DNA of 57,914 nucleotides from a virus: the IMG/VR virus record IMGVR_UViG_3300010160_004367, positions 1-57,914 of that record, one strand, 5' to 3'. A program made the translations under genes and the position numbers. This document shows positions 17,850-57,275 of this stretch, in pieces. Position 1 is the first letter of the stretch; every line of letters starts with the position of its first letter. The notes beneath the pieces are model-generated. The model saw only the letters and a list, made by a program, of their open reading frames with translations. It did no database searches and had not been told where the DNA came from.

Positions 17850-17857
17850 CATAAATA
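17850..17857 (+). promoter_or_regulatory. Late-promoter motif CATAAATA before gp25
   Basis: CATAAATA lies five bases before the gp25 ATG. If used with T4 geometry (motif at -13 to -6), transcription would start at or near the ATG and give a leaderless gp25 message. It may instead be a chance A/T-rich match within the operon. Confidence 0.4.
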
Positions 17858-36700: not shown

Positions 36701-37113
36701 GTTCAGGCAATTTGCTGACATCAGCTTATCAAGATTACATAGTTAAAGATACCACCTTGGGCGATGGCACAACCACTGTGTTTTATGCTCCAAACATAGA
36801 CATCAGCGACTTCAGTGATTCAAGCACAACTTATGTAGAAAGTATTGAAGTTTATGTGGGCGGCATACGCCAATACAACTACAGCGAAACCAGTGCTGAT
36901 TCACAATATCGTTACATCGTAACTGACTTTGGTCCATTGGCAATTGAGTTTGTCACTGACGGCACTTACCAAGCTCCTGCAGCCGGTGTTGAAGTCACTA
37001 TTCTGCAACGCCGAGGAAAGAGTTGGTATCAACCAGGTATCAACACTGCCAGCGATGGCGTAGCACTGCAAGAAACTGACACCGTAGCCGCAAGGTTTTT
37101 GTGTGACAGATAA
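21745..37113 (+). CDS. Giant baseplate/tail structural protein (5122 residues) with FG-GAP propeller
   Basis: A single open frame of 5122 residues with no frameshift, directly after gp6, where T4 has gp7. The N-terminal 140 residues (e.g. VDFLPQIFQTPVNKQFLSAT, DYYAWDPFVNYDAFINFSQY) are of a kind I associate with the largest structural protein of T4-like marine phages. Visible parts: three copies of a GGI-x2-G-x2-YY(V/I) beta module at about 558-600, 4400-4460 and 4536-4600; six FG-GAP-like blades at about 2497-3245; two GSGYT-x-PTV repeats near 3946 and 3988; a GLQRGTAGTA motif near 4960; and a conserved-looking C-terminus (LQRRGKSWYQPG). Expected role: peripheral wedge or arm protein, perhaps with glycan- or receptor-binding modules (inference). 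There is no membrane span. Confidence 0.85.
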   Translation: MARTRSVDFLPQIFQTPVNKQFLSATLDTLVQEPKFKQTQGFIGRTVGPGVNPNDKYVSELDKTRRDYQLEPGVVSLIPDTDKIKNVITYPGINDAIGFQGGDSTRPDQLYNSDYYAWDPFVNYDAFINFSQYYWLPSGPDRVDVYSTGIPVSENFVVTRANGAYTFSGQNGTNPTLELVRGGSYTFQVAQNTKETVNYRVSNQSISGYVIDQQLNPTLTLVRGNTYVFNLNLRGDYPFWIKTQQVLGTGNAYDSGVSRNGSIIGLVTFVVPQDAPDTLYYVSENQPNLTGTFNIIDATPGTGDDFWIQSFPGVDGVNPTTPNQGTRNVFGVVNNGTDLGTITFEVPQKTAQQFYFNLTDVGPVDLLTTLDYNQINNQPYLEFIVATGGIDGITYLNTRTLVFVNSSNDTNVYQIQLVTVDGIEYINLAPIFTIGVNEKFSILYGITWSNYSWYKNAAGIFEQIPQLTANLDRLYYQDGSDANIFGQIRLIEPADSTTLDIANVLGKKSYTSPNGVAFSNGLKVRFTGDVIPASYGSGTTEFTCTATINGSNYITTASTDGLYEGEQIVFPNGTLGGIVSGQIYYIKSISANRIQFSISTVVDGPSVLLTAATGTMNAVATSNREYYVAGVGTAIELLPVTDFITPETYVVDANDSTIASEPDQLDYLTISRASKDLNAWTRSNRWFHLSVIQASATYNNVVASFDNNYRAKRPIIEFRSDIRLYNMGTQGKQPVDVIDFEQTDALSNVQGTTSYSVDGYAFVDGSRVIFAADEDANVRNKIYTVQFIDPDSLPLTTAGNFAIKATYRINTLGTTDWNAAAGTTGVTYAVGSTFVAATAGSGTGTAYFDQPIINLVLTADGNVLYDDSVVCLDGTSLKGLTFWYDGVSWTEAQQKTKVQQAPLFDVYDLQGISFSNKVKYPSSTFIGSKLFSYAVGDTGILDPVLQFPLQYLNINNVGDIVFENNLYKDTFLYVLDNVSITSDISSGAAREYASRTVYEKLIGWQNAVTTSQVYQQFKFTYTGQTLKLDVAANADTVIPSIKIYVGSAFQPPETYSYTTTVDSTTITLNKVYLPTDIIEVLVLSDQVSEIGFYQVPINLESNPLNGNSPSFTLGTIRTHYESICENLTDLSGPVNGANNSRDLGNLVPYGLVILQQSSPLTMAGYFLRSEQFNIFSSLQYNSQEYLKFKGQMLNAVTQQNLQYQTAGQILDTAIDSVIQGRVETQPFYWSDMLPSGGSYVSNSYTVSYTTTASFPTQQVYSYTSANYLGMDVYLNDTILIRDYEYVVATDGPRITITTTLNIGDVVRIQEYSATYGSFVPNTPTKLGLYPAYRPQYIEQKTSTGTALCILGHDGSVTRVFNDVRDEVLLEFEKRIYNNLKLDGNPVPLTIYDVLPGQFRTTGYSINEINSILSQDFLSYVAWNKLDYRTQDYQANNEFTWNYSGSEGKLDNSALPGAWRGIYRYYYDTQQPELTPWEMLGLSIKPDWWETLYGPAPYTQDNLVLWDDLENGRVADPAGAYYLSKFARPGLTSVIPTGTQGELLSPFDSVVGTYNAQTFRKSWALGDGSPTEASWWNSSAYPFAVMRLLALTRPAKFFALFADRDLYKFNTELNQYLYNDRYRINAKDIEVYGNGVSKASYIDWIVDYNRQSGLNSTSELTADLDALDVRLCYRMASFSDKQYIKIYTEKSSPNSVNTTLLIPDESYNLVLYKNQPFDRVGYSSVVVQKTAGGYAVFGYSKTQPFFNTIGSQYTGQLQTFTSGGITVQVPTFYTNQVVQVPYGNVFANETAVSAFLLSYGEYLERQGLAFDDATNGYILTWGQMVNEFLYWSQQGWDENSLINLNPLAFKLSVTKPQAVIDSIVAQTSENILLDQNNRELPTRNLIITRLDNTFTVEPATDQTLSNIDLKYTSYEHMIVLNNTSAFGDLIYQPITGARQSRLNLIAYTSTEWNGSVDAQGFILNQNNIKEWDPYTTYAKGEIVLYKGAYWSAAEIVQPSELFNANNWYQSDYTRIELGLLPNLANKADQLINSYNINTANLETDNDLLSFGLIGFTPRQYMTALNLDDVSQLNVYRQFLGSKGTILSAELFSKVNLGKETGDYTIYENWAVQRAVYGANANRSLVQFRLNRALLSSNPSLVQVIDPGQVSQADQTIFLNEIWRQSYRLTSPNILPTTTTVPTDTALPSAGYVNVNDADITVFDINNTDSLAANIDAIEVGTTIWVAKTNVYDWDIYRAAAVPGIIAHVCDNLDGTSLVIFSQQHGLSVGEKLIIKFFDAEVNGVYDVISVVSLEKITIAFSFVGNRTVVDGTGIGFTLATQRVAQASDIINLPYANTLQPGAKVWVDNNGAGLWETLQKEEVFTQLTELAPVLNDVNQQYGSSVAQSRDKFSALAGSPRYRFPAGATLWNVANSYAEDSIVYIVDPYQTEFFQASQPVPQGIDIFNVTYWTPYSLTSLPTKGGVYVYVKSTNSNQYVPVSPLVAGDAVLTLDVTGVRSYGTAVDFGNKAWAVAGAPGSLGSLGQADNGYACVIYLAPDLGTPDTIPYGQWQLLTTPDSVSVDQGEFGYSVAMSLDERWMYIGAPGVNKVYAYGRVDWENQVLNLYGDGETTVYGISSMIQIDTATQLEVLVGGAEQVLNVDYTVDNAFTNVTFFTAPTEGDALQIKRTSRKLLDYGTYYGVTQTSTSGSGVNAEFTIIRQRNEVGQGNAPAATVGLVAVSSAGSSYAVGNTVTFAYTKFGGALVNGSIVLTITSVNGSGGITGFSTFYNPSVLTTVFSLNEYFFTATNIYSFSVLVDEVLQRPNIDYTFDSGTQDLTFVNSPARGSSILIRAEGYFEYVDTLTDPTLGVTDQFGYSVSTSTDGRQVIIGTPYSTQDGEVAAGSVYVFDRNVQKFIYGTDPSSVSFALLGSVTEPVSVLVNGTFLINEENSVLDAANTFTVSGPTVTINADLMVGDIIEIETNQFTQVQKITQSTAEPAAHFGQAVDLCSYNCSLYAGAPNSSVQEFHGGIVERNVNQSRAFGIITATVANPVLTSTGNTLRVNDIDVAVPASPNNTVAGLAEAINAAVPNVEATVSVAGYLTIAVKNSAAAAVGNKLQVAPGSAGGEVTFTELGFETFVYTQTILSPYPQTYAQFGASLSIDDSAVNLVVGSPNGTMYIPTDFDNYTALWDAGATEFFDLLFQSGTVYTYDLLPSSSSSVSNPDKFVFGQQIVNTDIAPYDQYGTSVSYVSGVLLSGAPGNERDDSTMSANYGRVFVSENPNRVPAWTVLTVEQPVVDIRLLNSVYAYDRITSATAEYFDFFNPLQGKILGAARQNLDYIGGLDPASYNVGPVNIRGTTWGSAHVGETWWDTSTVRFIDPNQDDIVYASRRWGQLFPGSTVDVYQWIVSDVAPANYVGPGIPHNTLSYAINTVLTQTGTFVTEYYFWVRGLTTTATQKGKTLPISTVANYIEDPRASGIAYVAPINASTIALYNAADYIVAQDTILSIEFDREATDSNVHVEYELVPQDKADGWISSNLYRKLQDSFCGVDTSGNLVPDVNLGPAERYGVQFRPRQSMFIDRYAALKNYLTRANTVLARYPVTENRTFILLNSQEPEPSASSGEWNKRVANLEILGFQDIYAVPVGYKYLVDSDSRNRGLWTIYTVGTTSTSAGVIRSLTLTRVQNYDTRQYWSYVDWYLPGYNTSSQIITTVPNYAGLGFLDLPVGSSVKVLANTQNKYEIYIRTLTGWDRVGLQDGTIEFSATLWDYALGRFGYDVEVFDAQYFDQEPVIETRKIIQAINEELFVDDLLIERNRSLTLMFNFVLSEFSAPGWLIKTSLIDVEHRIRSLLPYQNYTQDNQEFVLDYIQEVKPYHVQVKEFNLIYNGFNEWFGDMTDFDLPAYYNSSLEVPQYTSPILLPYNHGNAVGSTSNKLSDLPSDSTVWASWPYNQWFGNYTLSVDSVAVVAGGTGYTTPPTVVFTGNAIVPAQAVTVLNSQGEVVAVNVTYAGSGYTATPTVTIEGGGGAGSGAVVYPRMTGQGIGQDYSTQTPGPVQNYNLARSLRTVMKYDRCQYQTSVQTWSSNGTYENGTLVRYDDRVWSASSSDGSSAVVGPTFDIENWTLVNAATYTYPGSLYPTGLTGVDRTMGLYVPGVNEPGLQLPLLVDGIDYPGTQVWGDYFAGNITLDANYQSQFADIYLGTRYSDINVDGGEFIGPYEGHAPEELVNGSEYDTLDLRVYTRPGADWTVDGHGFQIKQINYIYHPAITNVYSWAGIVNAPVQVLVANLSTGYKLVQDHDYVVDYNVQNITILGGVSAEQIINIAVFELGGGNQLYRGSYQGQDIVATDNSTIIPVNYKEIVEFAVFQNGQPTAQPTYRPYSESIEWNLNNSYSALDIVYNDNLVTCTSTNSTYSTITCNDASALVEGQPIVFSGTVFGGIVAGTTYYVLSVPNATQFFITSVAGSTTALTLTDASGSMTGTPTGTYYRAIQSVIPGIFLNNTTYWLPFVPTLNTKVTFATEIAATDGVSLTAMGIATAFSITNTTVTTNAITLQGSTSGLSVGQQVSFSGNSLGGIEAGVVYYVLSIVNGNSFTVEATLGSGIAVTLITDAAVWTGELTAKFVPTNYTSWSTPIVQTFVVDNNTYTTKTFILTNSLEGTNPANLIVLQNGLRLQPPQGIEWIGDDSSVSFGLPQRGGYDQNIINPPSDISVWVDNVLQVQSVGAIVGDYSVTAWDGSNVPGRQVVFNTAPAAGARILISVSTVADYNVSGDQLQVIPNINIGDYITVITWNDTAEQNILTLVFNGPVQTGLTINEPYDSTNYDSGSVDYAPGAYDYTIGTAVAVNDFDLQRTGVSANRLWVTLNGYQLFEGSDFTVDGQYLILASGAIPVGAILAVTEFTESIVPEAVAFRIFQDMRGVQATYRMTPATTTVLTQSLSTTADTIYVDNASNLTEPNLPDGIFGIITVDSERIMYRYRDTALNTVSGLQRGTAGTAISAHAIGSIVYDIGSGNLLTSAYQDYIVKDTTLGDGTTTVFYAPNIDISDFSDSSTTYVESIEVYVGGIRQYNYSETSADSQYRYIVTDFGPLAIEFVTDGTYQAPAAGVEVTILQRRGKSWYQPGINTASDGVALQETDTVAARFLCDR
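29233..31470 (+). repeat. Six FG-GAP-like beta-propeller repeats in the giant protein
   Basis: Protein-level repeats beginning near residues 2497 (YGTAVDF...VAGAPG), 2563 (FGYSVAM...YIGAPG), 2849 (FGYSVST...IIGTPY), 2977 (FGQAVDL...YAGAPN), 3131 (FGASLSI...VVGSPNG) and 3219 (YGTSVSY...LSGAPG). Each has the FG-x-S-(V/L) start and a (G/S)(A/T/S)P turn 12-18 residues later, the pattern of integrin-like FG-GAP blades. Spacing is irregular, with insertions between blades. Confidence 0.7.
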
Positions 37114-44515: not shown

Positions 44516-44847
44516 CACCCGACCAACTGCAACAACTGTTGCAGGCCATGCCTGCACCCAAACCAGTATTTTGGAGATTGTATTACAGTGACGACGGCAA
44601 ACCAATTCAATACACCATGGAAGACTTGCCAGGTACATACATTGACGTTGACCCAGTGACGTATTCTCGTGGCAACATGAATATTCGAGTAGTCAATGAA
44701 CAAATAGTAGAAGTATTTTTTAGAACAACCAAAAAACTGGTTCCTGGCAACTCTGGATCCCCTTGTCATCCTGACAATGTCGCTGTAATCGTTGCCGAGG
44801 ACCAACCTCATACCAAATGGAAACAAAAAACATATGAATCAAATTGA
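44512..44847 (+). CDS. Conserved small phage protein, unknown function
   Basis: A 111-residue protein. MTPDQLQQLL begins a short helix, followed by PKPVFWRLYYSDDGKP and YTMEDLPGTYIDVD, then KKLVPGNSG and a charged C-terminus. I associate it with small conserved hypotheticals of T4-like aquatic phages, from memory. It has no catalytic motif, membrane span or signal peptide. Start by ATGA overlap with the cupin gene; its last 14 bases overlap the next gene. Confidence 0.75.
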   Translation: MTPDQLQQLLQAMPAPKPVFWRLYYSDDGKPIQYTMEDLPGTYIDVDPVTYSRGNMNIRVVNEQIVEVFFRTTKKLVPGNSGSPCHPDNVAVIVAEDQPHTKWKQKTYESN

Positions 44848-45760
44848 TATTGCAGACCTAGACTGTGTATACTTGAGCTATGACGAACCTGAAAAAGAAG
44901 AGTTTTGGGTCCGTATCAAAAACATGGTGCCTTGGGCCACCCGAGTAGATGGTATTAAAGGCTCAGATGCAGCACACAAGGCCGCGGCCACAGCCAGCAC
45001 CACTGAACGCTTTATCTTGATCGACGGAGACAATATTCCTGATGCTGCTTTTTTCAATCAAACATTGACATTTGTCACACCTGACTGGGAACAAGCAGTG
45101 TTTCGTTGGCGTGCTAGAAATCACATCAATGGACTCATGTACGGCAATGGCGGCGTGAGTTCATGGACACGTGAGTTTGTGTTCAACATGCGCACACACG
45201 AAGCCACCGACGGGCGTGTGGAAACAGAAGTAGAGTTTTGTTTTGATCCCTTATACTGGGCCATGCACGACTGCTACTCAACCACATATCCCAATGGTTC
45301 AGCATTTCAAGCCTGGCGTGCTGGATTTCGTGAAGGTGTTAAAATGTGCTTGAACAAAGGTTCCAAGCCCACAGTGGAACAGTTTCAACAACAAGTGCAT
45401 CAACGCAACTTGGATCATTTGACCATATGGCACAACATTGGTGCAGATGTCAACAATGGACAGTGGGCCATGGCTGGTGCCAGACAAGGCACATACATGA
45501 CCATGCTCACAAACTGGGATCATAGACTGGTGCAAGACTTTGATGCACTAGCAGAAATCTGGGACACAGTCAAAGATTCAGATCCTAGATTGCTGGGTGG
45601 CCGCGTGGCCGATGACTTGTATAGCCAGTTGGACTTGCCAATGGCCATATTTGAAGGTGAGCAAAGCCGGTTTTTCAAACAGCACTACCGTAGCAACTGG
45701 TCCAACCGTGGCATCATGGTGCGAGAGATTGATGTTATCCGCCAACAAGAAGGCTGGTAA
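44834..45760 (+). CDS. Glycosyltransferase-like protein with DGD motif
   Basis: A 308-residue protein. The N-terminus CVYLSYDEPEKEEFWVRIKN, then RVDGIKGSDAAHKAAATAS and RFILIDGDNIPD (DGD at 64-66), has the order of a GT-A transferase: first strand, nucleotide loop and DxD. The rest is mostly helical. I recognise this kind of protein in T4-like phages, where it stands near sugar genes. The start at 44834 is preferred over the in-frame codon at 44792 inside the previous gene. It is the last gene before the radical-SAM array and touches the first of them as TAATG. Acceptor unknown. Confidence 0.75.
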   Translation: MNQIDIADLDCVYLSYDEPEKEEFWVRIKNMVPWATRVDGIKGSDAAHKAAATASTTERFILIDGDNIPDAAFFNQTLTFVTPDWEQAVFRWRARNHINGLMYGNGGVSSWTREFVFNMRTHEATDGRVETEVEFCFDPLYWAMHDCYSTTYPNGSAFQAWRAGFREGVKMCLNKGSKPTVEQFQQQVHQRNLDHLTIWHNIGADVNNGQWAMAGARQGTYMTMLTNWDHRLVQDFDALAEIWDTVKDSDPRLLGGRVADDLYSQLDLPMAIFEGEQSRFFKQHYRSNWSNRGIMVREIDVIRQQEGW

Positions 45761-47157
45761 TGAACAAAGGTGATGAGTCAATAGACAACAAAAGCAAGTT
45801 CCTTGGTGCTGCTGAACAAATGAAACAGAAACTAGGACCTGCTCTTTGTCTGGCCAAGTGGAAGCAGGTTAGCCTACATCTCACCACCGGACTCAACAAC
45901 TCATGCTACCATCCTCCATTGCATGCTATTGATGCAGACGCAATAAAAGTAGATCCCAGGGCATTACACAATACTGCACACAAAAAAGCTCAACGTGTGA
46001 TGATGTTGCACAACGAAAAACCTGCTGAGTGCTCCTACTGCTGGAACATGGAAAATGAAGGCAAGCTCAGTGACCGACACTATCGATCAGGCGAGCCCTG
46101 GGCTGCCATAGATTTTGAATCAATAAAAAACTCAACAGGAGAAGAAAATGTTATCCCCAGTTATGTTGAAGTTAATTTCAACCATGCTTGTAATCTCAAG
46201 TGTAGTTATTGTAGCCCTCAGTTTTCAAGCTCTTGGCAGGACGAAGTTGCAAGGCTTGGCGCTTACCCTACTAGCAGTGCTCATAATGCTCCTGAGCATT
46301 TTGTGGGCCAACGACGCCCCATACCCACAAGAGAACACAATCCCTACGTTGACGCCTTCTGGTCTTGGTGGCCCGAACTCTATCCGCACCTAGAACATTT
46401 CCGCATGACTGGTGGTGAGCCACTGCTGGATCGGAATACCTATCGTGTGTTTGACTATGTGTTGGAGAATCCCAGTCCACGATTGCATTTGAATGTCACA
46501 AGCAATTTCTCAGTGGATGAGAAGTCATGGCAAAAATATCTAGACTATGTCAAACGCATCTGTGATGGACGCATAGAACACTTCATGCAGTATGTGAGCT
46601 TAGACGGCTGGGGTGCTCAAGCAGAATACATGCGGCATGGTCTAGACTTTGACTTGTTGTGGGACCGAGTAAATCAATTCCTTACTGAAGTTCCCAACTA
46701 CTCAAGCCTGACATTTATTATCACAATGAACAATCTCAGCGTGACTAGTTTGGACAAACTGTTTGCTGGCATACTAGGACTACGCAAGGTATACAGCAAC
46801 ACCTATCAGCGTGTGTGGTTTGACACACCTGTGTTGCGTGAACCTGCCTGGCAGAGTTTGCAAATACTTCCTGAAAGTTATGCAGATCGATTAGAATTGT
46901 TGTGGGCATGGATGATACGTCAAATTGAAACAGAAGAAGCACCGTTCCGAGGATTCAAAGACTACGAACTGCACAGACTGGATCGTGACATTGCTTGGAT
47001 GAGATCAGCACAGTTGAAAGATCACAGTCGTGCAAAAGCAGACTTCTATCGCTTCTTCAGCGAACATGACCGACGTCGTAGCACAGATTTTTTAGCAACA
47101 TTTCCTGAAATGAAGTCATGGTGGGAGGAGTGCGCATACCATGCTAGGCAATCGTAA
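45760..47157 (+). CDS. Radical SAM protein, N-terminal twitch, subtype A
   Basis: A 465-residue protein. Auxiliary cysteines come first: C30 (LCLAKW), C49 (SCYHPPLH) and C91-x2-C94 (CSYCW). The radical-SAM triad is C144-x3-C148-x2-C151 (CNLKCSYC), GGEP is at 218-221, and the C-terminus has HDRRR...FPEMKSWW. Subtype A is defined here by C-x-x-KW and SC(H/Y)-H-x-P near the N-terminus instead of CxxPW and CC; it is shared with the genes at 49402, 50736 and 54607. Substrate unknown. A +1-frame ORF for a two-span membrane protein lies inside at 46148-46393. Start by TAATG overlap. Confidence 0.88.
   Translation: MNKGDESIDNKSKFLGAAEQMKQKLGPALCLAKWKQVSLHLTTGLNNSCYHPPLHAIDADAIKVDPRALHNTAHKKAQRVMMLHNEKPAECSYCWNMENEGKLSDRHYRSGEPWAAIDFESIKNSTGEENVIPSYVEVNFNHACNLKCSYCSPQFSSSWQDEVARLGAYPTSSAHNAPEHFVGQRRPIPTREHNPYVDAFWSWWPELYPHLEHFRMTGGEPLLDRNTYRVFDYVLENPSPRLHLNVTSNFSVDEKSWQKYLDYVKRICDGRIEHFMQYVSLDGWGAQAEYMRHGLDFDLLWDRVNQFLTEVPNYSSLTFIITMNNLSVTSLDKLFAGILGLRKVYSNTYQRVWFDTPVLREPAWQSLQILPESYADRLELLWAWMIRQIETEEAPFRGFKDYELHRLDRDIAWMRSAQLKDHSRAKADFYRFFSEHDRRRSTDFLATFPEMKSWWEECAYHARQS
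46137..46141 (+). promoter_or_regulatory. Internal ribosome binding site for nested ORF
   Basis: AGGAG, followed by six bases and the ATG at 46148, all inside the radical-SAM gene and in the +1 frame. It is a near-ideal Shine-Dalgarno arrangement where none is needed for the enclosing gene. Confidence 0.5.
46148..46393 (+). CDS. Possible nested gene: two-span membrane protein, holin-like
   Basis: An 81-residue +1-frame ORF inside the radical-SAM gene. It has a hydrophobic span at about 6-26, a short basic loop (GRTK at 30-33), a second span at 36-53, and a Pro-rich polar tail. Support: AGGAG six bases upstream, and in the enclosing frame about 30 of the first 51 overlapped codons end in T, against roughly a quarter to a third elsewhere in the gene (hand count). 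Against it: +1 frames of genes are often hydrophobic, and T-ending codons are partly a consequence of that. The plan recalls two-span holins, and no other holin was recognised in the window. Not proven; comparative data would decide. Confidence 0.4.
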   Translation: MLSPVMLKLISTMLVISSVVIVALSFQALGRTKLQGLALTLLAVLIMLLSILWANDAPYPQENTIPTLTPSGLGGPNSIRT

Positions 47158-48265
47158 AATCATTGTAGACACCTGGGCCGAAGTATGGGACCTGCTTGAG
47201 CCGTATGCGGATGGAAATTTTTGGCAATGGCCTGAACAACTGGAACCTGATGCTGTTTACATTGTAGGCCGCGTGGTATTCAACGACAACTGGAAAGCCA
47301 TAACAGATTGGGCAACACAACATCCAGGCAATGTTGTGTTTTCCAATCCTGCCGAAGGCAGTCAAACCATGTGGACTCAACTTCAACGATTGAGAATCAT
47401 GAACCATGTGCAAGATGGACGTATTGGATTGTTGGCATCTGGTGACCTAGAACCTGGCTATAACTATTGCAAAACAGATTGTTATTTTTCTCATATTGTA
47501 GAATATTTAGAAAATTTACGTGCGCACGAATTTTATTCGCAGGTATATCACAAAACACGCAAGCCTTATGACTTCTTATTCCTTAATGGTCGGTTGCGTC
47601 CACATCGCAAATATCTAATAGATACCATGCGTGATCGAAAGTTGTTGGATCGAGCACTGTGGACCAATTTGCAAAATCAAGTGGACATGAGGTGGTCAAG
47701 TCAGCTGCCAACCCAAGACTTAGAACCAATAAGACTATTGCCGCCTGAGTATGAAATTGAACCAGCAAGATCAAATTTAGAATTGGTTGGACCAAACACT
47801 GGATTTGTCAAGTATCAATTGTTCAACAATATTCAAGAAGGATGCACCTGGGGAGATGCGGTTATCAATCCTGCTGCCTATATTGACACTTATTTTAGTG
47901 TGGTTTCAGAAACCATATTTGACTATCCTTATACATTTCGCACAGAAAAGATTTGGAAACCCATGATCATGGGCCACCCATTTGTGGCAGCGGCCAATCG
48001 CGGTTTCTACAGAGATTTACACTCGGCAGGATTTGAAACATTTGGTAATCTGATTGATGAGAGTTTTGATCTAATAGATGATCCTCGAGATCGTGCTGAT
48101 AGAATCGTTGACGTTGTGGCAGATATATGTTATAATGGTGCTGCTGAGTTTTTGGCAGCTGCCAAGGCAGTTTGTAAGCATAACTATCAACAACTTCGTG
48201 AACACAATCGTCGTGAACGTGCAGAACTGCCCAATCGTCTGGCTCAATACATCAACAATATATGA
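47141..48265 (+). CDS. Glycosyltransferase-like protein (fucosyltransferase-type C-terminus)
   Basis: A 374-residue protein. The N-terminal half is unfamiliar. The C-terminal half has FLFLNGRLRPHRKYLID (145-161), VVSETIFDYPYTFRTEKIWK (254-273) and PMIMGHPFV, a pattern shared with glycosyltransferases whose donor-binding C-domain reads TEK-(I/L)-x-K-x5-G-x-PF. It is the only non-radical-SAM gene in the array and may supply or finish the glycan on which the array acts (inference). Start at 47141 overlaps the previous gene by 17 bases, with GGAGG upstream near 47125; end overlaps the next gene as ATGA. Confidence 0.72.
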   Translation: MLGNRKIIVDTWAEVWDLLEPYADGNFWQWPEQLEPDAVYIVGRVVFNDNWKAITDWATQHPGNVVFSNPAEGSQTMWTQLQRLRIMNHVQDGRIGLLASGDLEPGYNYCKTDCYFSHIVEYLENLRAHEFYSQVYHKTRKPYDFLFLNGRLRPHRKYLIDTMRDRKLLDRALWTNLQNQVDMRWSSQLPTQDLEPIRLLPPEYEIEPARSNLELVGPNTGFVKYQLFNNIQEGCTWGDAVINPAAYIDTYFSVVSETIFDYPYTFRTEKIWKPMIMGHPFVAAANRGFYRDLHSAGFETFGNLIDESFDLIDDPRDRADRIVDVVADICYNGAAEFLAAAKAVCKHNYQQLREHNRRERAELPNRLAQYINNI

Positions 48266-49389
48266 ATGCTCATTATTGCATTTTACCTTTTATTCATTTA
48301 CACATAAATGAAAAAGATCAAGTCAAGTTGTGCTGTTATTCAACTGCATTAACACAATACAATGCTGAGTTTGATTATGTAACCAATGAACATTATCAAC
48401 AAGTAAGAAGTCAGCTTCGGCAAGGCTTACCAGTAAGGCAATGCGAATCTTGCTACAAGATAGAACAAGCCGGCGGTGAAAGTTTTAGAATAAGAGACAC
48501 CGCAGAGTGGCAACAAAAATTAAAAATTCAAGATTTAGATACGTTTGAACCTCAACTGATCTATTATGACATACGCAATGACAACACTTGCAACTTGAGT
48601 TGTCGTATATGTCATCCTGGTGCAAGCAGTCAATTGGAAAAAGAATACAAAAAACTAAACTGGCCTATCAAACCGTCTTCAAGAAAACACAAACTAACCA
48701 AAATTGTTGATTTAGATACCATACAGCAATTACAGATTGCTGGTGGAGAGCCAACAATCATGCCTGAATTTAAAGAATTTTTAGAAAATGCCATTGCCCA
48801 AAATCGAACTGATATTGCATTAAAAATTATAACAAATGCTACCAACGTTAACTTGTCTTATCAAACTCTGTTAAATGCATTCTCTGACAAAGAATTCATA
48901 GTCAGCATAGACGGCTATGATTTAATCAATCGGTATATACGATGGCCGAGTGATTGGGAAACATTGATCACAAACATACACAGGTTGTATGAAATAACTG
49001 ACCGTGTGTCATTCAATGTCACAGTAAGCATGTGGAACGTTGGCAATCTAAGCAAACTGATTTTGTTTTTAGAAAAAGAATTCAACAACCCTTTGATATT
49101 TTTAAATGAAGCTGTGCCAAATGGCAGAGCAAACATAAGCCCATTTAATCGGCCAGACCAGGACATTGTGCTTGCTGACTTAGAAAAATTAAAAAATTGT
49201 GCATCGTATCAACTCGAAGATCATTTCAAAAACAAAGTGGATTACTTTTTATCAAAAATGAAAACTCGTACAGTTGACCTAAACTCGTTGAGAAAATTCT
49301 TTGATTACAATGATCAGTTGGATCAATCTCGAAATGTAAAACTGGAAGACTTTGTTCCCGAATTATATGCATGCAAGAGTTATCTGTAA
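48262..49389 (+). CDS. Radical SAM protein, N-terminal twitch, subtype B
   Basis: A 375-residue protein and one of the shortest of the array. Auxiliary cysteines are C6 (YCILPF), C24-C25 (KLCC) and C61-x2-C64 (CESCY). The radical-SAM triad is C110-x3-C114-x2-C117 (CNLSCRIC), GGEP is at 161-164, and the C-terminus has LDQSRNVKLEDFVPEL. Subtype B (CxxP(W/F)...CC) is shared with the genes at 5503, 52123, 53403 and 55998. A short IRNDNTCNLSC lead matches the usual strand before the cluster loop. Substrate unknown. ATGA overlap with the preceding transferase-like gene. Confidence 0.88.
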   Translation: MNAHYCILPFIHLHINEKDQVKLCCYSTALTQYNAEFDYVTNEHYQQVRSQLRQGLPVRQCESCYKIEQAGGESFRIRDTAEWQQKLKIQDLDTFEPQLIYYDIRNDNTCNLSCRICHPGASSQLEKEYKKLNWPIKPSSRKHKLTKIVDLDTIQQLQIAGGEPTIMPEFKEFLENAIAQNRTDIALKIITNATNVNLSYQTLLNAFSDKEFIVSIDGYDLINRYIRWPSDWETLITNIHRLYEITDRVSFNVTVSMWNVGNLSKLILFLEKEFNNPLIFLNEAVPNGRANISPFNRPDQDIVLADLEKLKNCASYQLEDHFKNKVDYFLSKMKTRTVDLNSLRKFFDYNDQLDQSRNVKLEDFVPELYACKSYL

Positions 49390-49401
49390 ATACAATCCCT
49401 T

Positions 49402-50739
49402 ATGAATGATTTAGAATTTAAACAACAGGTGTTAGATCCTGTGTCCTCAAGTTTTTGTGCAGCAAAATGGTATAACGCTACCATTTGGTTAGGAAGTGGG
49501 CAGACAACAAGTTGCCATCACCCGCCAGCTCATTTGATTGACGTTGATAAAGTCAATAACAACTCTAGGCTGCTGCACAATACTGACCAGAAGAAAGAAG
49601 ACCGGCGCAAAATGCTTGCAGGCGAACGTCCCGCAGGCTGTGAATACTGCTGGAAGATCGAAGACATGGGTCGCGATGCTGTGAGTGACCGTGTTTACAA
49701 ATCAAAAATTTATCCTATAGAGGCCCTACATGAAGCAGTCAAAACTCCCATCGAACATGATGTCAATCTTAGAACTCTCGAAATTAGTTTTGATCGCACT
49801 TGTCAATTTGCTTGTTCTTATTGCAATCCTGCTTTTAGTTCCACTTGGGTCAATGACATCCGCAAGCATGGACCTTATGTTGGACTTGTTAGCGATGGCA
49901 GGAACCATTTTACTCACACTCATGATAATAGTCAACTTTATAAATTCGGTGAGACTAATCCGTACGTGGACGCCTTCTTCGACTGGTGGGAACAAGACCT
50001 CCACAAGACCCTCCAAGAACTCCGCATAACTGGCGGCGAGCCCTTAATGTCGGGCTACACCTGGAAGCTGATTGAGTGGTTCAAAACCAACCAAGGACGT
50101 AGCAACACCCGGTTGGCAATCAACTCAAATCTTGGCATTGACATGGACAAGATGAAAGACTTTGCCATGGCAGTTCACGCACTGCCTGAAGTGGATCTAT
50201 ATACCTCAATGGAAGCCACATTTGGTCAAGCAGAATACATTCGTGACGGACTAGACTATGACCAATGGCTGAACAATGTGTTATTTTTGTTGGAAGGCCA
50301 ATTTGTCAGTGCAGTGCATGTGATGTGTACAATCAATGCACTGTGCTTGGATAGTCTTGTGGACCACCTTAACATGATGTTGAGTTTGAAACAACGTTAT
50401 GGGCGTGATCAACTTAACTTTACGTTGAACATCTTACGATTCCCCAGTTTCCAAAGTGCATTAGTGTTACCAGATCACATACGCAATCGTTATCGACTGC
50501 AACTTGAAGCCTGGTTGTTTCACAATCGTGAAAACCCTTGTTTGCATGAACACGAAGTTAATCACGTTCAGCGGCTGATTGATTACCTTGACACAGTAAA
50601 GACACCACATTCAGAAGCATTTGAACAACCTAAACTGTTGAATGATTTCAAACAGTTTTACACACAATATGATCAACGCAGAGACAAAATGTTTGCTAGA
50701 ACATTTCCTAATCTGGCAGAATGGTATAACACACTATGA
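49402..50739 (+). CDS. Radical SAM protein, N-terminal twitch, subtype A
   Basis: A 445-residue protein. C19 (FCAAKW), C38 (SCHHPPAH) and C80-x2-C83 (CEYCW) form the auxiliary set. The radical-SAM triad is C134-x3-C138-x2-C141 (CQFACSYC), GGEP is at 211-214, and the C-terminus has YDQRRDKMFARTFPNLAEWY. It is the closest relative of the next gene (50736), and the pair looks like a tandem duplication. The segment between the triad and NPYVDAFF is poorly conserved between paralogs, and here it encloses a +1-frame membrane ORF (49730-50029). A 12-base gap precedes it, the only gap within the array. Confidence 0.88.
   Translation: MNDLEFKQQVLDPVSSSFCAAKWYNATIWLGSGQTTSCHHPPAHLIDVDKVNNNSRLLHNTDQKKEDRRKMLAGERPAGCEYCWKIEDMGRDAVSDRVYKSKIYPIEALHEAVKTPIEHDVNLRTLEISFDRTCQFACSYCNPAFSSTWVNDIRKHGPYVGLVSDGRNHFTHTHDNSQLYKFGETNPYVDAFFDWWEQDLHKTLQELRITGGEPLMSGYTWKLIEWFKTNQGRSNTRLAINSNLGIDMDKMKDFAMAVHALPEVDLYTSMEATFGQAEYIRDGLDYDQWLNNVLFLLEGQFVSAVHVMCTINALCLDSLVDHLNMMLSLKQRYGRDQLNFTLNILRFPSFQSALVLPDHIRNRYRLQLEAWLFHNRENPCLHEHEVNHVQRLIDYLDTVKTPHSEAFEQPKLLNDFKQFYTQYDQRRDKMFARTFPNLAEWYNTL
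49730..50029 (+). CDS. Possible nested gene: two-span membrane protein
   Basis: A 99-residue +1-frame ORF inside the radical-SAM gene. Two strong hydrophobic spans lie at about 19-39 and 51-73, joined by a short polar loop (SMTSASMD), with a basic C-terminal tail (RLIRTW...K...R..K). This suggests both ends in the cytoplasm, as in class II holins. GAGG at 49720-49723 lies six bases before the ATG. In the enclosing frame about 40 of 66 codons over the spans end in T, against about 14 of 70 downstream (hand count). It begins just before the Cys triad and ends just before GGEP, the same place as the nested ORF at 46148. The +1-frame hydrophobic bias is the main alternative explanation. Confidence 0.4.
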   Translation: MKQSKLPSNMMSILELSKLVLIALVNLLVLIAILLLVPLGSMTSASMDLMLDLLAMAGTILLTLMIIVNFINSVRLIRTWTPSSTGGNKTSTRPSKNSA

Positions 50740-52142
50740 CTTTCCCTGCTGATCTTTCCAAAATAAAAGTATGGAAAGAGCAAACACTCGACAGCAAGAG
50801 CAAAAGTTTTTGTGGAGCAAAATGGTATCATTCTAGCATGTGGCTGTGGAGAGGATGGACAGCCAGCTGCCATCACAATCCTCCACATCAAATTGATCAA
50901 GCGGAAATTGCACAAACTCCCAGTGCATTGCACAATACATCGAAAAAAATCAATGAACGTGCAATGATGCAACGTGGCGAAAAACCCTTGGATTGCCAAT
51001 ATTGCTGGGCAATAGAAAACATCGATTCAGACATGTTAGCAGACAGAGTTTGGTATAGCAAAAGTATGTCAAGCAAAAGTTTGCAGGTGGCATTTGAAAA
51101 TTCACCTGAAACTCATGTGAATCCAACATATCTTGAGTTGGGGTTTGACAGCACATGTAATCTGGCATGCAGTTATTGTTGTCCTGACATCAGCAGTTCT
51201 TGGATGCGCGATATCAAACAAAATGGTGTGTATCAAAATATCATCACTGATGAACGTGAACATTATACTCGTGCTGGCAGTGTTGGGGACAACTACAGCT
51301 ACGGTGAAGAAAATCCCTATGCTGATGCATTTTTTAAATGGTGGGAAACAGATCTGCACCTCTCATTGAGGAACATACATATCACTGGCGGCGAGCCGTT
51401 GATGAGTGGACATTTTTGGAAATTTTTAGATTGGTTGGAACAGAACCCCAACAAAAGTCGTGCATCTATATCCATACAAACAAACTTGGCCTACGATTCA
51501 GACATGTTGAATAGATTCCTTGACAAGATCTCAACAATAAGAACGGGTTTTGCAATTTCCACTAGTATGGAATCCACAGGATCAAAAGCAGAATATGTTA
51601 GAGATGGTGTGAACTGGGAACAATGGTGTAAAAATATAAACATATTAACCAAGAACAAACGCATAAACCGTGTGGAGATTTTCTCCACAATGAGTGCAGT
51701 ATCATTAAACGGGTTTGTGGAATTTTTAACTTGGTTAGTAGAACAAAAGAAACAGATGGGCAAATCTTATTTTGATCTGTATATAAGTTATGTGAGATGG
51801 CCTACTTTTCAAAATGTAATGGTGCTGCCTGCAGAAATAAAAAAACAATACAGCAATGAGTTGCAATATTTTGTTGACAACAATCAACAATGGTTTTCGA
51901 CCAAAGAAATAAATTTTATAAACAGACTGATATCATATCTTGTCGACGTGCAATCTCCGCATAGTGGAAGCATAGTATCAGACGGAACATTAAATTTTGT
52001 TGATCAGCAATTTGCTCACAACACTTTATCAATGCAAAAAGATTTTAAAAGTTTTTTCTCTCAGTATGATCAGCGCAGAAATAAAAAATTTACTGCAACG
52101 TTTCCTAACCTAGAAGAATGGTATGACTCAATACAAGTATAA
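50736..52142 (+). CDS. Radical SAM protein, N-terminal twitch, subtype A
   Basis: A 468-residue protein, paralog of the gene before it. C26 (FCGAKW), C45 (SCHHNPPH) and C87-x2-C90 (CQYCW) form the auxiliary set. The radical-SAM triad is C141-x3-C145-x2-C148 (CNLACSYC), directly followed by another Cys at 149. GGEP is at 218-221, and the C-terminus is YDQRRNKKFTATFPNLEEWY. Shared phrases with 49402 include NPYADAFFKWWETDL. The matching +1 frame (51133-51369) is open and hydrophobic, but it opens with TTG, has no ATG near its start and no good ribosome site. It starts by an ATGA overlap and overlaps the next gene by 20 bases. Substrate unknown. Confidence 0.88.
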   Translation: MTFPADLSKIKVWKEQTLDSKSKSFCGAKWYHSSMWLWRGWTASCHHNPPHQIDQAEIAQTPSALHNTSKKINERAMMQRGEKPLDCQYCWAIENIDSDMLADRVWYSKSMSSKSLQVAFENSPETHVNPTYLELGFDSTCNLACSYCCPDISSSWMRDIKQNGVYQNIITDEREHYTRAGSVGDNYSYGEENPYADAFFKWWETDLHLSLRNIHITGGEPLMSGHFWKFLDWLEQNPNKSRASISIQTNLAYDSDMLNRFLDKISTIRTGFAISTSMESTGSKAEYVRDGVNWEQWCKNINILTKNKRINRVEIFSTMSAVSLNGFVEFLTWLVEQKKQMGKSYFDLYISYVRWPTFQNVMVLPAEIKKQYSNELQYFVDNNQQWFSTKEINFINRLISYLVDVQSPHSGSIVSDGTLNFVDQQFAHNTLSMQKDFKSFFSQYDQRRNKKFTATFPNLEEWYDSIQV

Positions 52143-53406
52143 CAGCAGTGATCTGGTGCGTCCCACAGAACTCACAGACCGTGAGCAATTTTTGTTGACT
52201 GAATCAAAAACATTTTGCATATATCCTTGGATACACTTGCATGCCTATCCCACAGGTGAAGCATATCCTTGTTGCCATGCTGAGATGGGTGTGGGACAAG
52301 TTGGTAATTGTCGTATCCAGCCGTTGGAAGAAATTTGGAACAATACCAAGCAACGACAGTTACGCATGGACATGCTGACCGAAACAGACAACTCCACTTG
52401 CGGTCGCTGTTACGAGCAAGAGAAATCAGGATTCTTCTCAGGACGTCAAAGCGCCAACAAGCATCATGGGCATCATGTTGCTCGGGTGCATAACACTGAA
52501 GACAACGGCCACTTGGAACAATTTGAAATGACCTACTGGGATATTCGTTTCTCAAACTTGTGCAATTTAAAATGTCGCAGTTGCGGGCATATCTTTTCAA
52601 GCCAATGGTATCAAGACCAAGCCAAGCTGGCAGGTGGCGACTGGAAGGATCGCAACACTGTGTTGAACTATGCAGGACGCACTGAAACGGATATGTGGGA
52701 ACAATTAGAACCGCACTTGGATTACGTGGAGCAAATTTACTTTGCTGGCGGCGAACCCTTGCTGATGGAAGAACACTATCGTATTTTGGAAGAACTTGTT
52801 CGACGCAAAATGTTCCATGTGCGATTGATTTACAACACAAACTTCACGCACACTGAACTCAAGGGCAAGAGTGTATTTGAATACTGGAAACTGTTTGACA
52901 GCGTGGCAGTGGGTGCAAGTTTGGATGCTTCCGGTGTGCGAGGAGAATATATTCGCAAAGGCACTGACTGGGCTGTGGTAGAACACAACCGTGTTGAAAT
53001 GCTGAAAATTTGTCCAGGCGTTGATTTTTACATTAGTCCTACCTTGAGTATTCTCAACGCACGCCACTTGCCTGAGTTTCATCGCAACTGGGTAGAACGC
53101 GGATTAATTCGACCACAGGACTTGAATGTAAATATATTACAAGATCCTGCACATTATAGAATTGATATTGCTACCAAAGAATACAAAGAAGAATTAAGCA
53201 CAAGGTATTTGAATCACATCATGTGGTTGCGTGATCAAGATCCACTGGGTCGCGCCACACAAGGGTTTGAATCAGCAATAACTTTTATGAACACCACAGA
53301 CAACACTCACTTGATAGATACGTTTTGGCGTAAAACACACGAGCTAGATAATATTAGACGAGAAAGCATTATGGATGTGATTCCAGAACTGGCAGCATTA
53401 AAATGA
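52123..53406 (+). CDS. Radical SAM protein, N-terminal twitch, subtype B
   Basis: A 427-residue protein. C32 (FCIYPWIHLH), C50-C51 (AYPCC) and C93-x2-C96 (CGRCY) are the auxiliary cysteines. The radical-SAM triad is C147-x3-C151-x2-C154 (CNLKCRSC), GGEP is at 209-212, and the C-terminus is LDNIRRESIMDVIPELAAL. It resembles 55998 in the WDIRFSNLCNLKCR / WDYRFSNLCNFKCR lead to the triad, so these two are likely sister copies. The 20-base overlap with the previous gene may reflect a somewhat later true start. Substrate unknown. Confidence 0.88.
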   Translation: MTQYKYNSSDLVRPTELTDREQFLLTESKTFCIYPWIHLHAYPTGEAYPCCHAEMGVGQVGNCRIQPLEEIWNNTKQRQLRMDMLTETDNSTCGRCYEQEKSGFFSGRQSANKHHGHHVARVHNTEDNGHLEQFEMTYWDIRFSNLCNLKCRSCGHIFSSQWYQDQAKLAGGDWKDRNTVLNYAGRTETDMWEQLEPHLDYVEQIYFAGGEPLLMEEHYRILEELVRRKMFHVRLIYNTNFTHTELKGKSVFEYWKLFDSVAVGASLDASGVRGEYIRKGTDWAVVEHNRVEMLKICPGVDFYISPTLSILNARHLPEFHRNWVERGLIRPQDLNVNILQDPAHYRIDIATKEYKEELSTRYLNHIMWLRDQDPLGRATQGFESAITFMNTTDNTHLIDTFWRKTHELDNIRRESIMDVIPELAALK

Positions 53407-54617
53407 ACATACCACACGATAAGTTTTGCGTGTTACCCTGGATTAGTATTGAAGCCTCGCCTGTTGGAACAGTGCGTCCTTGTTGCCTTGCTGACAACGA
53501 AATTGTAGACGATTCGGGCCGCAAATTTGAGTTGAGCACAGCCAACTTTGCTGATATACAAAACTCAAATCACATGCGCAGCCTGCGTGAACAGTTTCTT
53601 GCAGGTGAGCGCCCACAAACTTGTCGCAAGTGCTGGAATGAAGAACGTGGCGGTCGCACCAGCAAGCGTATGCACACACTAGACAGACTCAAACACACAA
53701 TCACAGACACAGAGTGGACCGCAGACGCCAAGCACTTGATGTTTTTGGATCTAAAACTGGGAAATATCTGCAATTTGAAATGCCGCATTTGTGGCTCATG
53801 GTCGAGCAGTCAATTTGCTTCAGAAGAAATCAGTTACTTGCCGCGAGAACAACAAAAATCAAGTCATGCATATCAAATGCTACGTGCAGGTGCCTGGCCC
53901 AGAGAGAACACTCAATTCTGGCAGCAGATTGACAGTGTGCTAACAGACATTCGCTATATTGAATTCACTGGTGGCGAACCGTTCATGATTGACGAACACT
54001 TTGACATGTTGCAGGGCATTGTTGATCGTGGCATCGCACACCAAGTTGAAATACACTACAACACCAATGGCACACAGTATCCTGAACGTGGTGAGGCAAT
54101 TTGGCGGCATTTCAAAACTGTTGAGATTGCATTCAGTATTGATGACATTGGAGAGAGATTTGAATATCAACGTAGCAACGCCAATTGGTCGGGGGTCTGC
54201 GCAAACCTAGATCGTTTTAGAGATCTCAAAGAATGTCACAAGAATATAGTGCTACAAATTTGCACCACAGTAAACGTATTCAATGTGCGTTACTTAGATC
54301 AAGTTGCCCAATGGATTGATCTGAACAAAGAAAGTTTTAATTTTGTATACTGGAACATGATGCACGATGCATGGTATTTCAGTATTGCCACACTGCCAGA
54401 CACTGCCAAAGCAGCCATAACACAACATCTACGTTCAGCAGATGTTCCGCCACAGTATCGTGGAGAATTTGATCGCATTGTGGATTTTATGAACACTGGT
54501 GCAAGTTCAGACGGTGCCATCTTGCGTATGAAGGTTGCAGATTTAGATCGCAAACGCAATCAAAATTTGCGTGATATAGAACCTGAATTTGCTGAGCTAA
54601 TCAATTATGAATCTTAA
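53403..54617 (+). CDS. Radical SAM protein, N-terminal twitch, subtype B
   Basis: A 404-residue protein. C9 (FCVLPWISIEASP), C27-C28 (VRPCC) and C74-x2-C77 (CRKCW) are the auxiliary cysteines. The radical-SAM triad is C123-x3-C127-x2-C130 (CNLKCRIC), GGEP is at 190-193, and the C-terminus is LDRKRNQNLRDIEPEF. It is the closest of the array to the minus-strand gene at 5503: both have VRPCC, the lead DLKLGN / DIKPGN before the triad, HYN(S/T)NG after GGEPF, and a similar FSIDDIGERFE / FSIDNIGHRFE stretch. Its copy was therefore placed next to gp46/gp47 by transfer or duplication within the phage lineage (inference). ATGA overlap at the start. Confidence 0.88.
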   Translation: MNIPHDKFCVLPWISIEASPVGTVRPCCLADNEIVDDSGRKFELSTANFADIQNSNHMRSLREQFLAGERPQTCRKCWNEERGGRTSKRMHTLDRLKHTITDTEWTADAKHLMFLDLKLGNICNLKCRICGSWSSSQFASEEISYLPREQQKSSHAYQMLRAGAWPRENTQFWQQIDSVLTDIRYIEFTGGEPFMIDEHFDMLQGIVDRGIAHQVEIHYNTNGTQYPERGEAIWRHFKTVEIAFSIDDIGERFEYQRSNANWSGVCANLDRFRDLKECHKNIVLQICTTVNVFNVRYLDQVAQWIDLNKESFNFVYWNMMHDAWYFSIATLPDTAKAAITQHLRSADVPPQYRGEFDRIVDFMNTGASSDGAILRMKVADLDRKRNQNLRDIEPEFAELINYES

Positions 54618-56001
54618 ATTATATTTTGGCAAAGAAGACTATGACAATTTAGCAGGGCCTGATTGGCCCAGTTACGAGTCTATCTGTGCTGGCGTGACAG
54701 CAAAAGATCCTGAAATACAAAAAGAGATAGACGGGTATTTAGATATGTTTCGCAAGGATGGTATCAAGTTTCCTATCAACACTGCCACAGCATGTCAAAG
54801 TAAATGGACCTGGAGCACAATTTATTTAAATCAGCTATCCACCGCCAGTTGTCACAGAGTGCAACCTCTACCATTTGAACTAGAAAATTTTGACAATTTT
54901 CATAACATACCAAAAAAATTACAAGATCGTCAACTGATGTTGGAAGGAAAATGGCCCAAGGGAGGCTGCGAATATTGTCAGGTAATAGAAGAAGCTGGCG
55001 GCCACAGTGATCGTCAACACAACTTGGAAATACGCGGATTGACTCCTCCAGAGGTAGAACTAGACCCCACTGCTGTTAATGTAAGCCCTCGCATAGTAGA
55101 AATATTTGCGCAGAACACTTGCAACTTGTCATGCATTTATTGCAATGGTAATTTGAGCAGTCAAATCGAAAGAGAAAATATCAAACACGGAAATTTCAAT
55201 TCAAATGGAGTTAGAATTCCAATAATCACAACTCCTACTCAAGCTGCAAAAGAATACTTTGATCGCTTTATTTCTTGGCTGGACCGTAATGTAAACACTT
55301 TGAATAGACTGCACTTGCTGGGTGGCGAAACATTTATACAACACGAATTAATGACTGCTGTGTTGGGCATACTAGAAAAGAATCCCAACCCTGACTTGCA
55401 GTTTTGTATTTTCAGTAACTTGAATGTTCCTGACAGTGCATGGGATAGATATGTTCCTCGCATATTGGATTTACAAAAACGTGGTTATATAAAATACTTC
55501 GATTTGACAGCCAGCATTGATTGCTGGGGACCTGAACAAGAATATGTTCGTTCAGGATTGAATTTAGAAAAGTTCGAAAAACGTTTTGCATGGGCAGCCG
55601 ATCAAGACCCAACTCGGTTGAGATTGAATGTGAATCAAACAGTGACTGGGATGACAATAAAAACCATGCCAGGACTGATTGAAAAAATCAAACAATACAG
55701 CAAGCACAGACACATTGGGCATTATTTTCAATTCTATACTGGAACACACATGTTTCAACATCCCAATGTGTTTGCCTACAGCATGTGGGAAAAAGATTTT
55801 AAAAATATACTTGCAGTCATGCCAACTGATACCATAGAACAGCAAGAAGCCATACCTCGCATGATTGGACTGCAACGATATCTTCAACAAAGGGTTGACC
55901 ATAATCACAGTGAAATTAAAAAATTGCATGTGTATCTAGATGAGCTTGATCGCCGCCGCGGCACTGATTGGAACAAATTGTTTGGATATTTAAAAGTATG
56001 A
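54607..56001 (+). CDS. Radical SAM protein, N-terminal twitch, divergent subtype A
   Basis: A 464-residue protein. It carries an extra N-terminal stretch of about 35 residues compared with other subtype A members. C63 (ACQSKW), C82 (SCHRVQP) and C121-x2-C124 (CEYCQ) form the auxiliary set. The radical-SAM triad is C172-x3-C176-x2-C179 (CNLSCIYC). GGET at 239-242 replaces the usual GGEP. The C-terminus ends LDRRRGTDWNKLFGYL and lacks the FPNLxEWY end of its relatives. It is the most divergent of the four subtype A proteins, and its +1 frame is interrupted, with no membrane ORF. It overlaps the preceding gene by 11 bases. Confidence 0.86.
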   Translation: MNLKLYFGKEDYDNLAGPDWPSYESICAGVTAKDPEIQKEIDGYLDMFRKDGIKFPINTATACQSKWTWSTIYLNQLSTASCHRVQPLPFELENFDNFHNIPKKLQDRQLMLEGKWPKGGCEYCQVIEEAGGHSDRQHNLEIRGLTPPEVELDPTAVNVSPRIVEIFAQNTCNLSCIYCNGNLSSQIERENIKHGNFNSNGVRIPIITTPTQAAKEYFDRFISWLDRNVNTLNRLHLLGGETFIQHELMTAVLGILEKNPNPDLQFCIFSNLNVPDSAWDRYVPRILDLQKRGYIKYFDLTASIDCWGPEQEYVRSGLNLEKFEKRFAWAADQDPTRLRLNVNQTVTGMTIKTMPGLIEKIKQYSKHRHIGHYFQFYTGTHMFQHPNVFAYSMWEKDFKNILAVMPTDTIEQQEAIPRMIGLQRYLQQRVDHNHSEIKKLHVYLDELDRRRGTDWNKLFGYLKV

Positions 56002-57275
56002 GTCTATGCATGGCGCCCTGGGTGCATACCTATCTAAGTCCGCAAACAGAACGACGTATGTGTTGTGCGTCAAGAGAACCTGCGCAGAACTTTGAGCAAT
56101 ACATAGACACAGCCGCAGGCACTGGTCAATACATTCCTATCACACTGGATGAGCACTGGAACTCACCGCACATGATGAGTGTGCGCAGTAGAATGATGGC
56201 TGGCGAAACACTCCCCGAGTGTGAAGTATGCAATGACAAACTGTTGAACACAGACGTTTACCGCACATATTTTTGGCATTTGTTCAAACATAAGTATCCT
56301 GACATCTGGGAAACTACCGACACAGCAGGCCGCACCACAATGCAGCCTGTGAGTTGGGATTATAGATTCAGTAACCTGTGCAATTTCAAATGTCGTATGT
56401 GCGGTGACATGCTGAGCTCAAGTTGGGAAACAGAGCAGAAGCAACACAACATGGTTGACTGGTCGAATTCCAAGAACACCTGGATGCGGCCTGAGGTGCG
56501 TCGAGAGATTTCAGCATTCCAAGACAGTCAAATAGAGGCTGAGTTTGCTGAGGCAGTGGAACAGCATCGTGTTGAAGAAGTATACTGGGTAGGTGGCGAG
56601 CCCCTGATGTACGAACAACATTGGCGTTATATGAAGCGCATAGTTGAATTAGGGGATGGGCCAAGAGTATATGCTAGATACAATACAAATTTATCCAGAG
56701 TGGATTATCGAGGTGTTAATCTATATTGCAATATTCTTAGTGGGCTACGTGATTGGCAGATATGTGCGAGTCTCGACGGCACAGGCGCAATTGGTGAATA
56801 CATTAGAACAGGCCTTGAGTATGATCAGTGGCTTGACAATTTTGGTCAAGCAGTTGCGATCCAACGTCACAGACGTCAAGTACGAATTGACTTTACGCTC
56901 ACTCTGCCCGGAATGTTCGAAGTTACACGTATTAGACAACTTGCCCAAGAGTTCAGAGTCGACGTCCTTGCTAAAGTAATATTCTCATTCTCACCAGACA
57001 TCATAATGAGTCCACTGGCATTGCCAAAATCTTTGTTAGACGCCTGGGTTGATGAATTGGTGCCAGAAGTGAACGGTGCTCTACGTGATGTATTGTTGCA
57101 ATTAAAACAACGACCCACATTTGAACAGCAATGGCCAGATCAATATCGTGCAGGCCTTGCAAAGGGCAAGGCACGTGTGTTACAATTAGAAAGCATACGC
57201 ACACAGAAGATCACAATGGCAGAAATACTAGCTGATCGTCCTGCAGTGCTAGAATGGTGGAACAACATTGCTTGA
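55998..57275 (+). CDS. Radical SAM protein, N-terminal twitch, subtype B
   Basis: A 425-residue protein. C4 (LCMAPWVH), C22-C23 (RMCC) and C75-x2-C78 (CEVC) are the auxiliary cysteines. The radical-SAM triad is C128-x3-C132-x2-C135 (CNFKCRMC), and GGEP is at 199-202. The C-terminal pattern ESIRTQKITMAEIL...AVLEWW is longer than in its relatives. The ATG at 55998 is preferred over an upstream in-frame codon at 55968 because it gives the ATGA overlap and the usual distance to the first Cys. A +1-frame ORF with one membrane span lies within at 56656-56979. Over that stretch the enclosing frame uses no TTG among about 11 Leu codons, whereas TTG is common just after it. Confidence 0.88.
   Translation: MSLCMAPWVHTYLSPQTERRMCCASREPAQNFEQYIDTAAGTGQYIPITLDEHWNSPHMMSVRSRMMAGETLPECEVCNDKLLNTDVYRTYFWHLFKHKYPDIWETTDTAGRTTMQPVSWDYRFSNLCNFKCRMCGDMLSSSWETEQKQHNMVDWSNSKNTWMRPEVRREISAFQDSQIEAEFAEAVEQHRVEEVYWVGGEPLMYEQHWRYMKRIVELGDGPRVYARYNTNLSRVDYRGVNLYCNILSGLRDWQICASLDGTGAIGEYIRTGLEYDQWLDNFGQAVAIQRHRRQVRIDFTLTLPGMFEVTRIRQLAQEFRVDVLAKVIFSFSPDIIMSPLALPKSLLDAWVDELVPEVNGALRDVLLQLKQRPTFEQQWPDQYRAGLAKGKARVLQLESIRTQKITMAEILADRPAVLEWWNNIA
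56656..56979 (+). CDS. Possible nested gene: single-span membrane protein
   Basis: A 107-residue +1-frame ORF inside the radical-SAM gene. One hydrophobic span at about 17-34 (IIEVLIYIAIFLVGYVIG) is followed by RYVR, a probable amphipathic helix at 43-70, and a polar tail with CPEC at 84-87. Unlike a typical accidental frame it has ordered-looking composition, and about 8 of 17 Leu codons are TTG, in keeping with the phage's habit. The first ATG has AGGGG directly against it, which is poor spacing; a second ATG at 56671 has AAGAG three bases before it. Support is therefore codon use and protein character rather than a ribosome site. It might be a small lysis or membrane-effector protein (inference). 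Confidence 0.38.
   Translation: MGQEYMLDTIQIYPEWIIEVLIYIAIFLVGYVIGRYVRVSTAQAQLVNTLEQALSMISGLTILVKQLRSNVTDVKYELTLRSLCPECSKLHVLDNLPKSSESTSLLK

Follow-up and report, generated by a model that had tools for sequence, protein, structure and literature searches.

The window, the whole stretch of DNA that was analysed, is a 57.9-kb virus record (IMGVR_UViG_3300010160_004367) that carries T4-like genes for SbcCD-like nuclease subunits, a late sigma factor and baseplate proteins. A 5122-aa ORF at 21745–37113 probably encodes a giant tail or adhesin protein. The T4 late-promoter-like motif ATAAATA occurs four times, at 17851, 18258, 37119 and 37887, each time in or beside a short gap before structural genes and nowhere inside the radical-SAM cluster, and this total is not above chance for the window. 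The first 20 or so codons of an ORF starting at 44792 (44792–44850) are strongly conserved at synonymous sites (ratio 0.31, z −8.4); this segment probably shares its sequence with the end of the gene before it, and the true start of the ORF is probably a later ATG. A run of radical-SAM genes is located downstream of the tail genes. Next to its member rSAM1, at least seven more radical-SAM genes, some with SPASM domains, stand in a row at 48262–57275, an unusually dense cluster. The features of rSAM1 are as follows:

45760–47157, plus strand: rSAM1, the enclosing radical-SAM gene, 465 aa
46137–46141, plus strand: internal Shine–Dalgarno (SD) sequence AGGAG, 6 nt upstream of the ATG at 46148
46148–46393, plus strand: overprinted ORF in frame +1, 81 aa, predicted to form two membrane helices
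46157–46228, plus strand: predicted helix TM1, residues 4–27 of the +1 protein (AlphaFold2, excess of T-ending codons)
46189–46212, plus strand: codons of the CxxxCxxC Fe-S motif of rSAM1, beneath TM1 of the +1 protein (translation, alignment)
46247–46315, plus strand: predicted helix TM2, residues 34–56 of the +1 protein (AlphaFold2, excess of T-ending codons)

The enzyme belongs to the radical SAM superfamily by both motif and profile: CxxxCxxC is invariant across 19 aligned rSAM1 homologs, and the protein matches PHROG radical-SAM families with E 2e-9 and PF04055 with E 1e-4 and 23 bits, the latter under the curated cut-off of 29.5 bits. Relatives of the enzyme are absent from genome contigs, which therefore give no clue to the host.

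The internal ORF starts with ATG at 46148 and ends with a stop at 46391–46393, 81 codons in frame +1 relative to rSAM1. The sequence-only reading had described an 81-residue ORF six bases after a perfect AGGAG, with two membrane spans and a basic loop, lying where the enzyme uses T-ending codons at about twice its usual share, and had taken these features together as a sign of dual coding. Each of the features is there: the ORF and the SD have the spacing described, two hydrophobic stretches flank a loop containing K and R, and among the first 61 overlapped codons 31 end in T, whereas the rest of rSAM1 has 103 such codons in about 404. This excess is high over both helices and absent over the loop. 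With the protein held fixed and the synonymous codons of the window sequence reshuffled, an open run of such length spanning the motif arises with P = 0.004.

Is the second frame under selection? Among 384 viral-contig stretches encoding rSAM1 relatives, the best 80 were kept. Synonymous differences were taken for 31 sister pairs off the tree, in an alignment by codon that held 63 non-redundant genes. Expected stops were obtained by fixing the protein and redrawing synonymous codons from each gene's own usage. The overlap tests were done by script and are comparable in method to synplot2 (PMC4227794) and OLGenie (PMC7531306). Relative to a gene average of about 1.0, synonymous differences drop to 0.67 at codons 115–129 and to 0.44–0.48 at codons 125–149, stay at 0.55–0.68 up to codon 189, and are back up by codons 195–209, the lowest z (−8.8) falling inside the overlap. 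The span of reduced change (0.44–0.68) thus matches the SD and the ORF only, with values near 1 elsewhere in rSAM1. Over the ORF, the 63 homologs hold 7 stops in the +1 frame where 172 are expected, and the frame is open in 59 of 63 against an expected 1.6, counts that come from related sequences and hence are not independent events. In the same redraw test the hydropathy of the +1 product is 1.46, against 0.41 expected, and +1 stops are near expectation in other windows of the same genes. The Gly126 codon of the enzyme, at the SD site, is GGA in 93% of intact homologs, and the SD is retained together with a start codon, ATG or at times GTG, even across a codon insertion.

Constraint of this kind might also reflect an RNA structure, a codon-speed programme or some other nucleic-acid element, the open +1 frame being a by-product of T-ending codons. 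An excess of such codons does by itself remove some +1 stops. However, stop avoidance is specific: at NTA and NTG codons within intact ORFs, contexts that create a +1 stop occur once and sense contexts 151 times, compared with 345:571 and 915:1584 outside the ORF. Substitutions that leave the enzyme unchanged but alter the +1 residue occur at 0.32 per site, against 0.50–0.57 in control regions, whereas changes silent in both frames, though such sites are few, are not reduced (0.90 per site against 0.69–0.90 in controls), which argues that the constraint acts on +1 coding and not on an RNA element. Expressed as dSN/dSS, the overlap gives 0.35 and the controls 0.64–0.73, with dSS, which rests on few sites, not reduced. 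(Rates of stop-creating silent changes were set aside, since the label "open" filters on absent stops and the comparison would be partly circular.) The T-ending excess is, moreover, missing from homologs that lack the ORF but retain the protein motif, as it is from the rSAM5 and rSAM6 families, and a nucleic-acid element would not account for a start and SD that persist across a codon insertion. This explanation is accordingly given very little credence.

Long +1 ORFs do arise in this window by chance. A +1 run in rSAM4 (51133–51369) looked significant when only the window was considered, but close orthologs have it interrupted, and an ORF in gene 47141 (48078–48311) is likewise interrupted in relatives; both were rejected as chance. 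The idea that 46148–46393 is a functionless ORF of the same sort is hardly credible, as it is contradicted by the conservation tests, which the two chance ORFs, serving as controls, fail. Dual coding at 46148–46393, by the comparative evidence, is near certain: the synonymous-conservation test proposed for it is passed decisively, and the avoidance of stops is specific to the +1 frame. At the level of sequence comparison, then, the start, the SD, the open frame and the hydrophobic pattern are all conserved, with constraint specific to the +1 frame. Stops in that frame are common just upstream of 46148, so that internal initiation is the simplest way into it.

The ORF is not retained everywhere. 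When distant homologs were added, giving 115 lineages, it was intact (a start and at least 52 open codons) in 84 and not intact in 31, and it must therefore be dispensable. On the tree of lineages there are at least 12 changes between the intact and broken states, compared with an average of 27 when labels are shuffled. In broken lineages the TM1 stretch holds 43 stops where 48.9 are expected, about the neutral rate, while the same stretch of intact lineages holds none. The z-scores for hydropathy and T-ending codons are near 0.5 in broken lineages but reach 2.9 and 2.8 where the ORF is intact, and an SD-like motif is found in 80 of 84 intact but 13 of 31 broken lineages. Since the signature vanishes where the ORF is broken, it follows the ORF and not the enzyme family. 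Freely interrupted +1 frames, which the sequence-only reading had named as evidence against dual coding, do exist among the homologs, but these are a minority in which the whole signature is lost. In four distant lineages (L191, L194, L195 and L210), only an open stretch the size of the first helix is left in rSAM1 or rSAM3; these are possibly single-helix versions or decaying remnants.

A paralog further along the cluster has the same arrangement:

49402–50739, plus strand: rSAM3, paralogous radical-SAM gene, 445 aa, 34% identical to rSAM1
49719–49723, plus strand: internal SD AGAGG, 6 nt ahead of the ATG at 49730
49730–50029, plus strand: second overprinted +1 ORF, 99 aa, two hydrophobic stretches

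In 130 non-redundant rSAM3 homologs (paralog sets for the rSAM3 and rSAM4 tests were built by best-match assignment), 54 stops are observed in the +1 frame against 410 expected, and the frame is fully open in 103 against 3.0 expected. The Glu106 codon, at the SD site, is GAG in 78% of sequences. Stops in the +1 frame are frequent at codons 105 and 108, right before the ORF; with such stops right upstream of both ORF starts, read-in from the enzyme frame by a +1 frameshift was rejected. The rSAM1 and rSAM3 small proteins align over no more than 11 residues, and either a common or a parallel origin would fit them. Both ORFs are intact in 58 cases, neither in 20, and one only in 11 and 11, a count that ignores phylogeny and makes their co-occurrence suggestive. 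The overprinting signature was not found in the rSAM5, rSAM6 or gene 47141 families. Gene 47141 does have a stretch close to its 3′ end (48100–48240) where synonymous change is lowered, with a ratio of about 0.66–0.73; no alternative frame is kept open there in relatives.

What does the +1 frame encode? In relatives the product is 59–87 aa long, and an AlphaFold2 model built from an alignment of 51 small proteins has two helices (residues 4–27 and 34–56) at a mean pLDDT of 66, which is low confidence. The product is likely a membrane protein, its insertion being suggested by hydropathy, and once translated it would presumably take the shape of a helical hairpin. The net charge is positive at both the N-terminus and the loop, and the topology was therefore not called. 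No match of known function was found for the small protein in Pfam, PHROGs, PDB sequences or phage genomes, and neither overprinted product, that of rSAM1 or that of rSAM3, matches a known family.

The sequence-only reading had called the ORF holin-like and had recognised no other holin candidate in the window. Class II and pinholin-type holins have two membrane helices in about 60–80 aa, and the +1 protein resembles them in size and in its two predicted helices, which lie within the one to three membrane helices of a holin. It differs from them in having no family match, no established dual-start motif, no clear topology and no adjacent endolysin. As a holin or pinholin-like effector, it would build up in the inner membrane and open or depolarise it for the endolysin. 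Lysis genes of leviviruses commonly take the form of small hydrophobic +1 ORFs (PMC7693330), and the endolysin encoded by relatives is hydrophobic over a stretch at its N-terminus, both of which fit such a role. On the other hand, no holin family was matched by the window protein, searched against Pfam and PHROGs, nor by 51 relatives searched against PHROGs, the positive charge at the N-terminus and loop does not make a clear holin topology, and the late-promoter-like site is absent from the radical-SAM cluster. The endolysin, too, is elsewhere. In a 225-kb relative, the gene for a SleB-type endolysin (PF07486, E 3e-25; PHROG endolysin) has immediately behind it one for a 103-aa protein with three transmembrane segments (3-TM), and this lysis cassette is about 130 kb distant from the rSAM1-type gene. 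(The cassette lies at 16603–17486 of L292, or 75103–75986 of G001.) The endolysin gene overlaps the conserved 3-TM ORF by a few bases. Among 15 large relatives the endolysin is found in 10 and the 3-TM protein in 8, and both occur in lineages with an intact and with a broken overprinted ORF. Since the window is a 57.9-kb fragment and the cassette is so far off in the relative, the want of another candidate in the window says little.

The 103-aa ORF has no family match either; judged by position only, it likely represents a new holin family and is a better holin candidate than the overprinted protein. The T4 holin family PF11031 had no matches in 20 relatives. Ten records gave none for the endolysin families PF01510 and PF13539 and a single match for PF00959, in G011, within a 791-codon frame. 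Of the holin-like description, then, size and the two predicted helices stand, but family match, linkage to an endolysin, sole candidacy and a readable topology do not. With no family match and a separate lysis cassette, a holin identity was rejected as unlikely, indeed improbable, and the essential holin is most likely the product of a different gene.

A real overprinted gene that codes for a two-helix membrane protein other than the essential holin is thus, with good confidence, the best explanation. In such a gene, ribosomes would initiate internally at the SD and ATG within the radical-SAM mRNA and translate in the +1 frame, making a small two-helix inner-membrane protein together with the enzyme; rSAM3 would, with low certainty, yield a counterpart. 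Any specific function is doubtful. The protein could, again with low certainty, be a non-essential, host-facing membrane protein, acting in exclusion, host takeover or the tuning of lysis, with its expression tied to that of the radical-SAM cluster. More speculative, and rather unlikely, is the idea that rSAM1 and rSAM3 each carry a two-helix protein across the Fe-S core, and that this pair is made along with the enzymes and works with them as a single unit. If true, the pair may, for example, form a heteromeric membrane effector or serve as membrane partners of the enzymes, and would represent a new module in tailed phages, an enzyme plus a hidden membrane protein.

Classical examples of nested lysis genes in phages are phiX174 E within D and lambda Rz1 within Rz. 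The ORF in rSAM1 is similar in that a small membrane-associated product is nested in another frame of a phage gene, but here the enclosing gene encodes an auxiliary radical-SAM enzyme instead of a structural or lysis protein. Another comparison is with the levivirus single-gene lysis (sgl) genes in rep (PMC7693330), which are likewise small, hydrophobic, SD-preceded ORFs, lie wholly inside the gene of an enzyme in its +1 frame, and are likewise clade-limited, with losses. However, sgl genes sit mostly in poorly conserved parts of rep (PMC7693330), whereas here, in a large dsDNA tailed phage, the ORF lies over the most conserved catalytic motif, is retained across a broad clade and in two paralogs, and would at most be a candidate lysis gene beside a separate endolysin. 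The overlapping genes of phage Fc02 (PMC9936078) are also small ORFs in alternate frames, but these map to the repressor region, the phage being temperate, and have a tested exclusion activity.

Large dsDNA phages have little need for saving space, yet over the most constrained part of an enzyme, in each of two paralogs, a second frame is kept for a likely membrane protein. Aquatic viromes commonly contain this gene family, and standard gene callers easily miss it. The intact, broken and possibly single-helix versions offer a natural series for the birth and loss of overprinting genes. Phage radical-SAM genes may therefore hide second products, which matters for knock-out or expression tests of the function of the enzyme.
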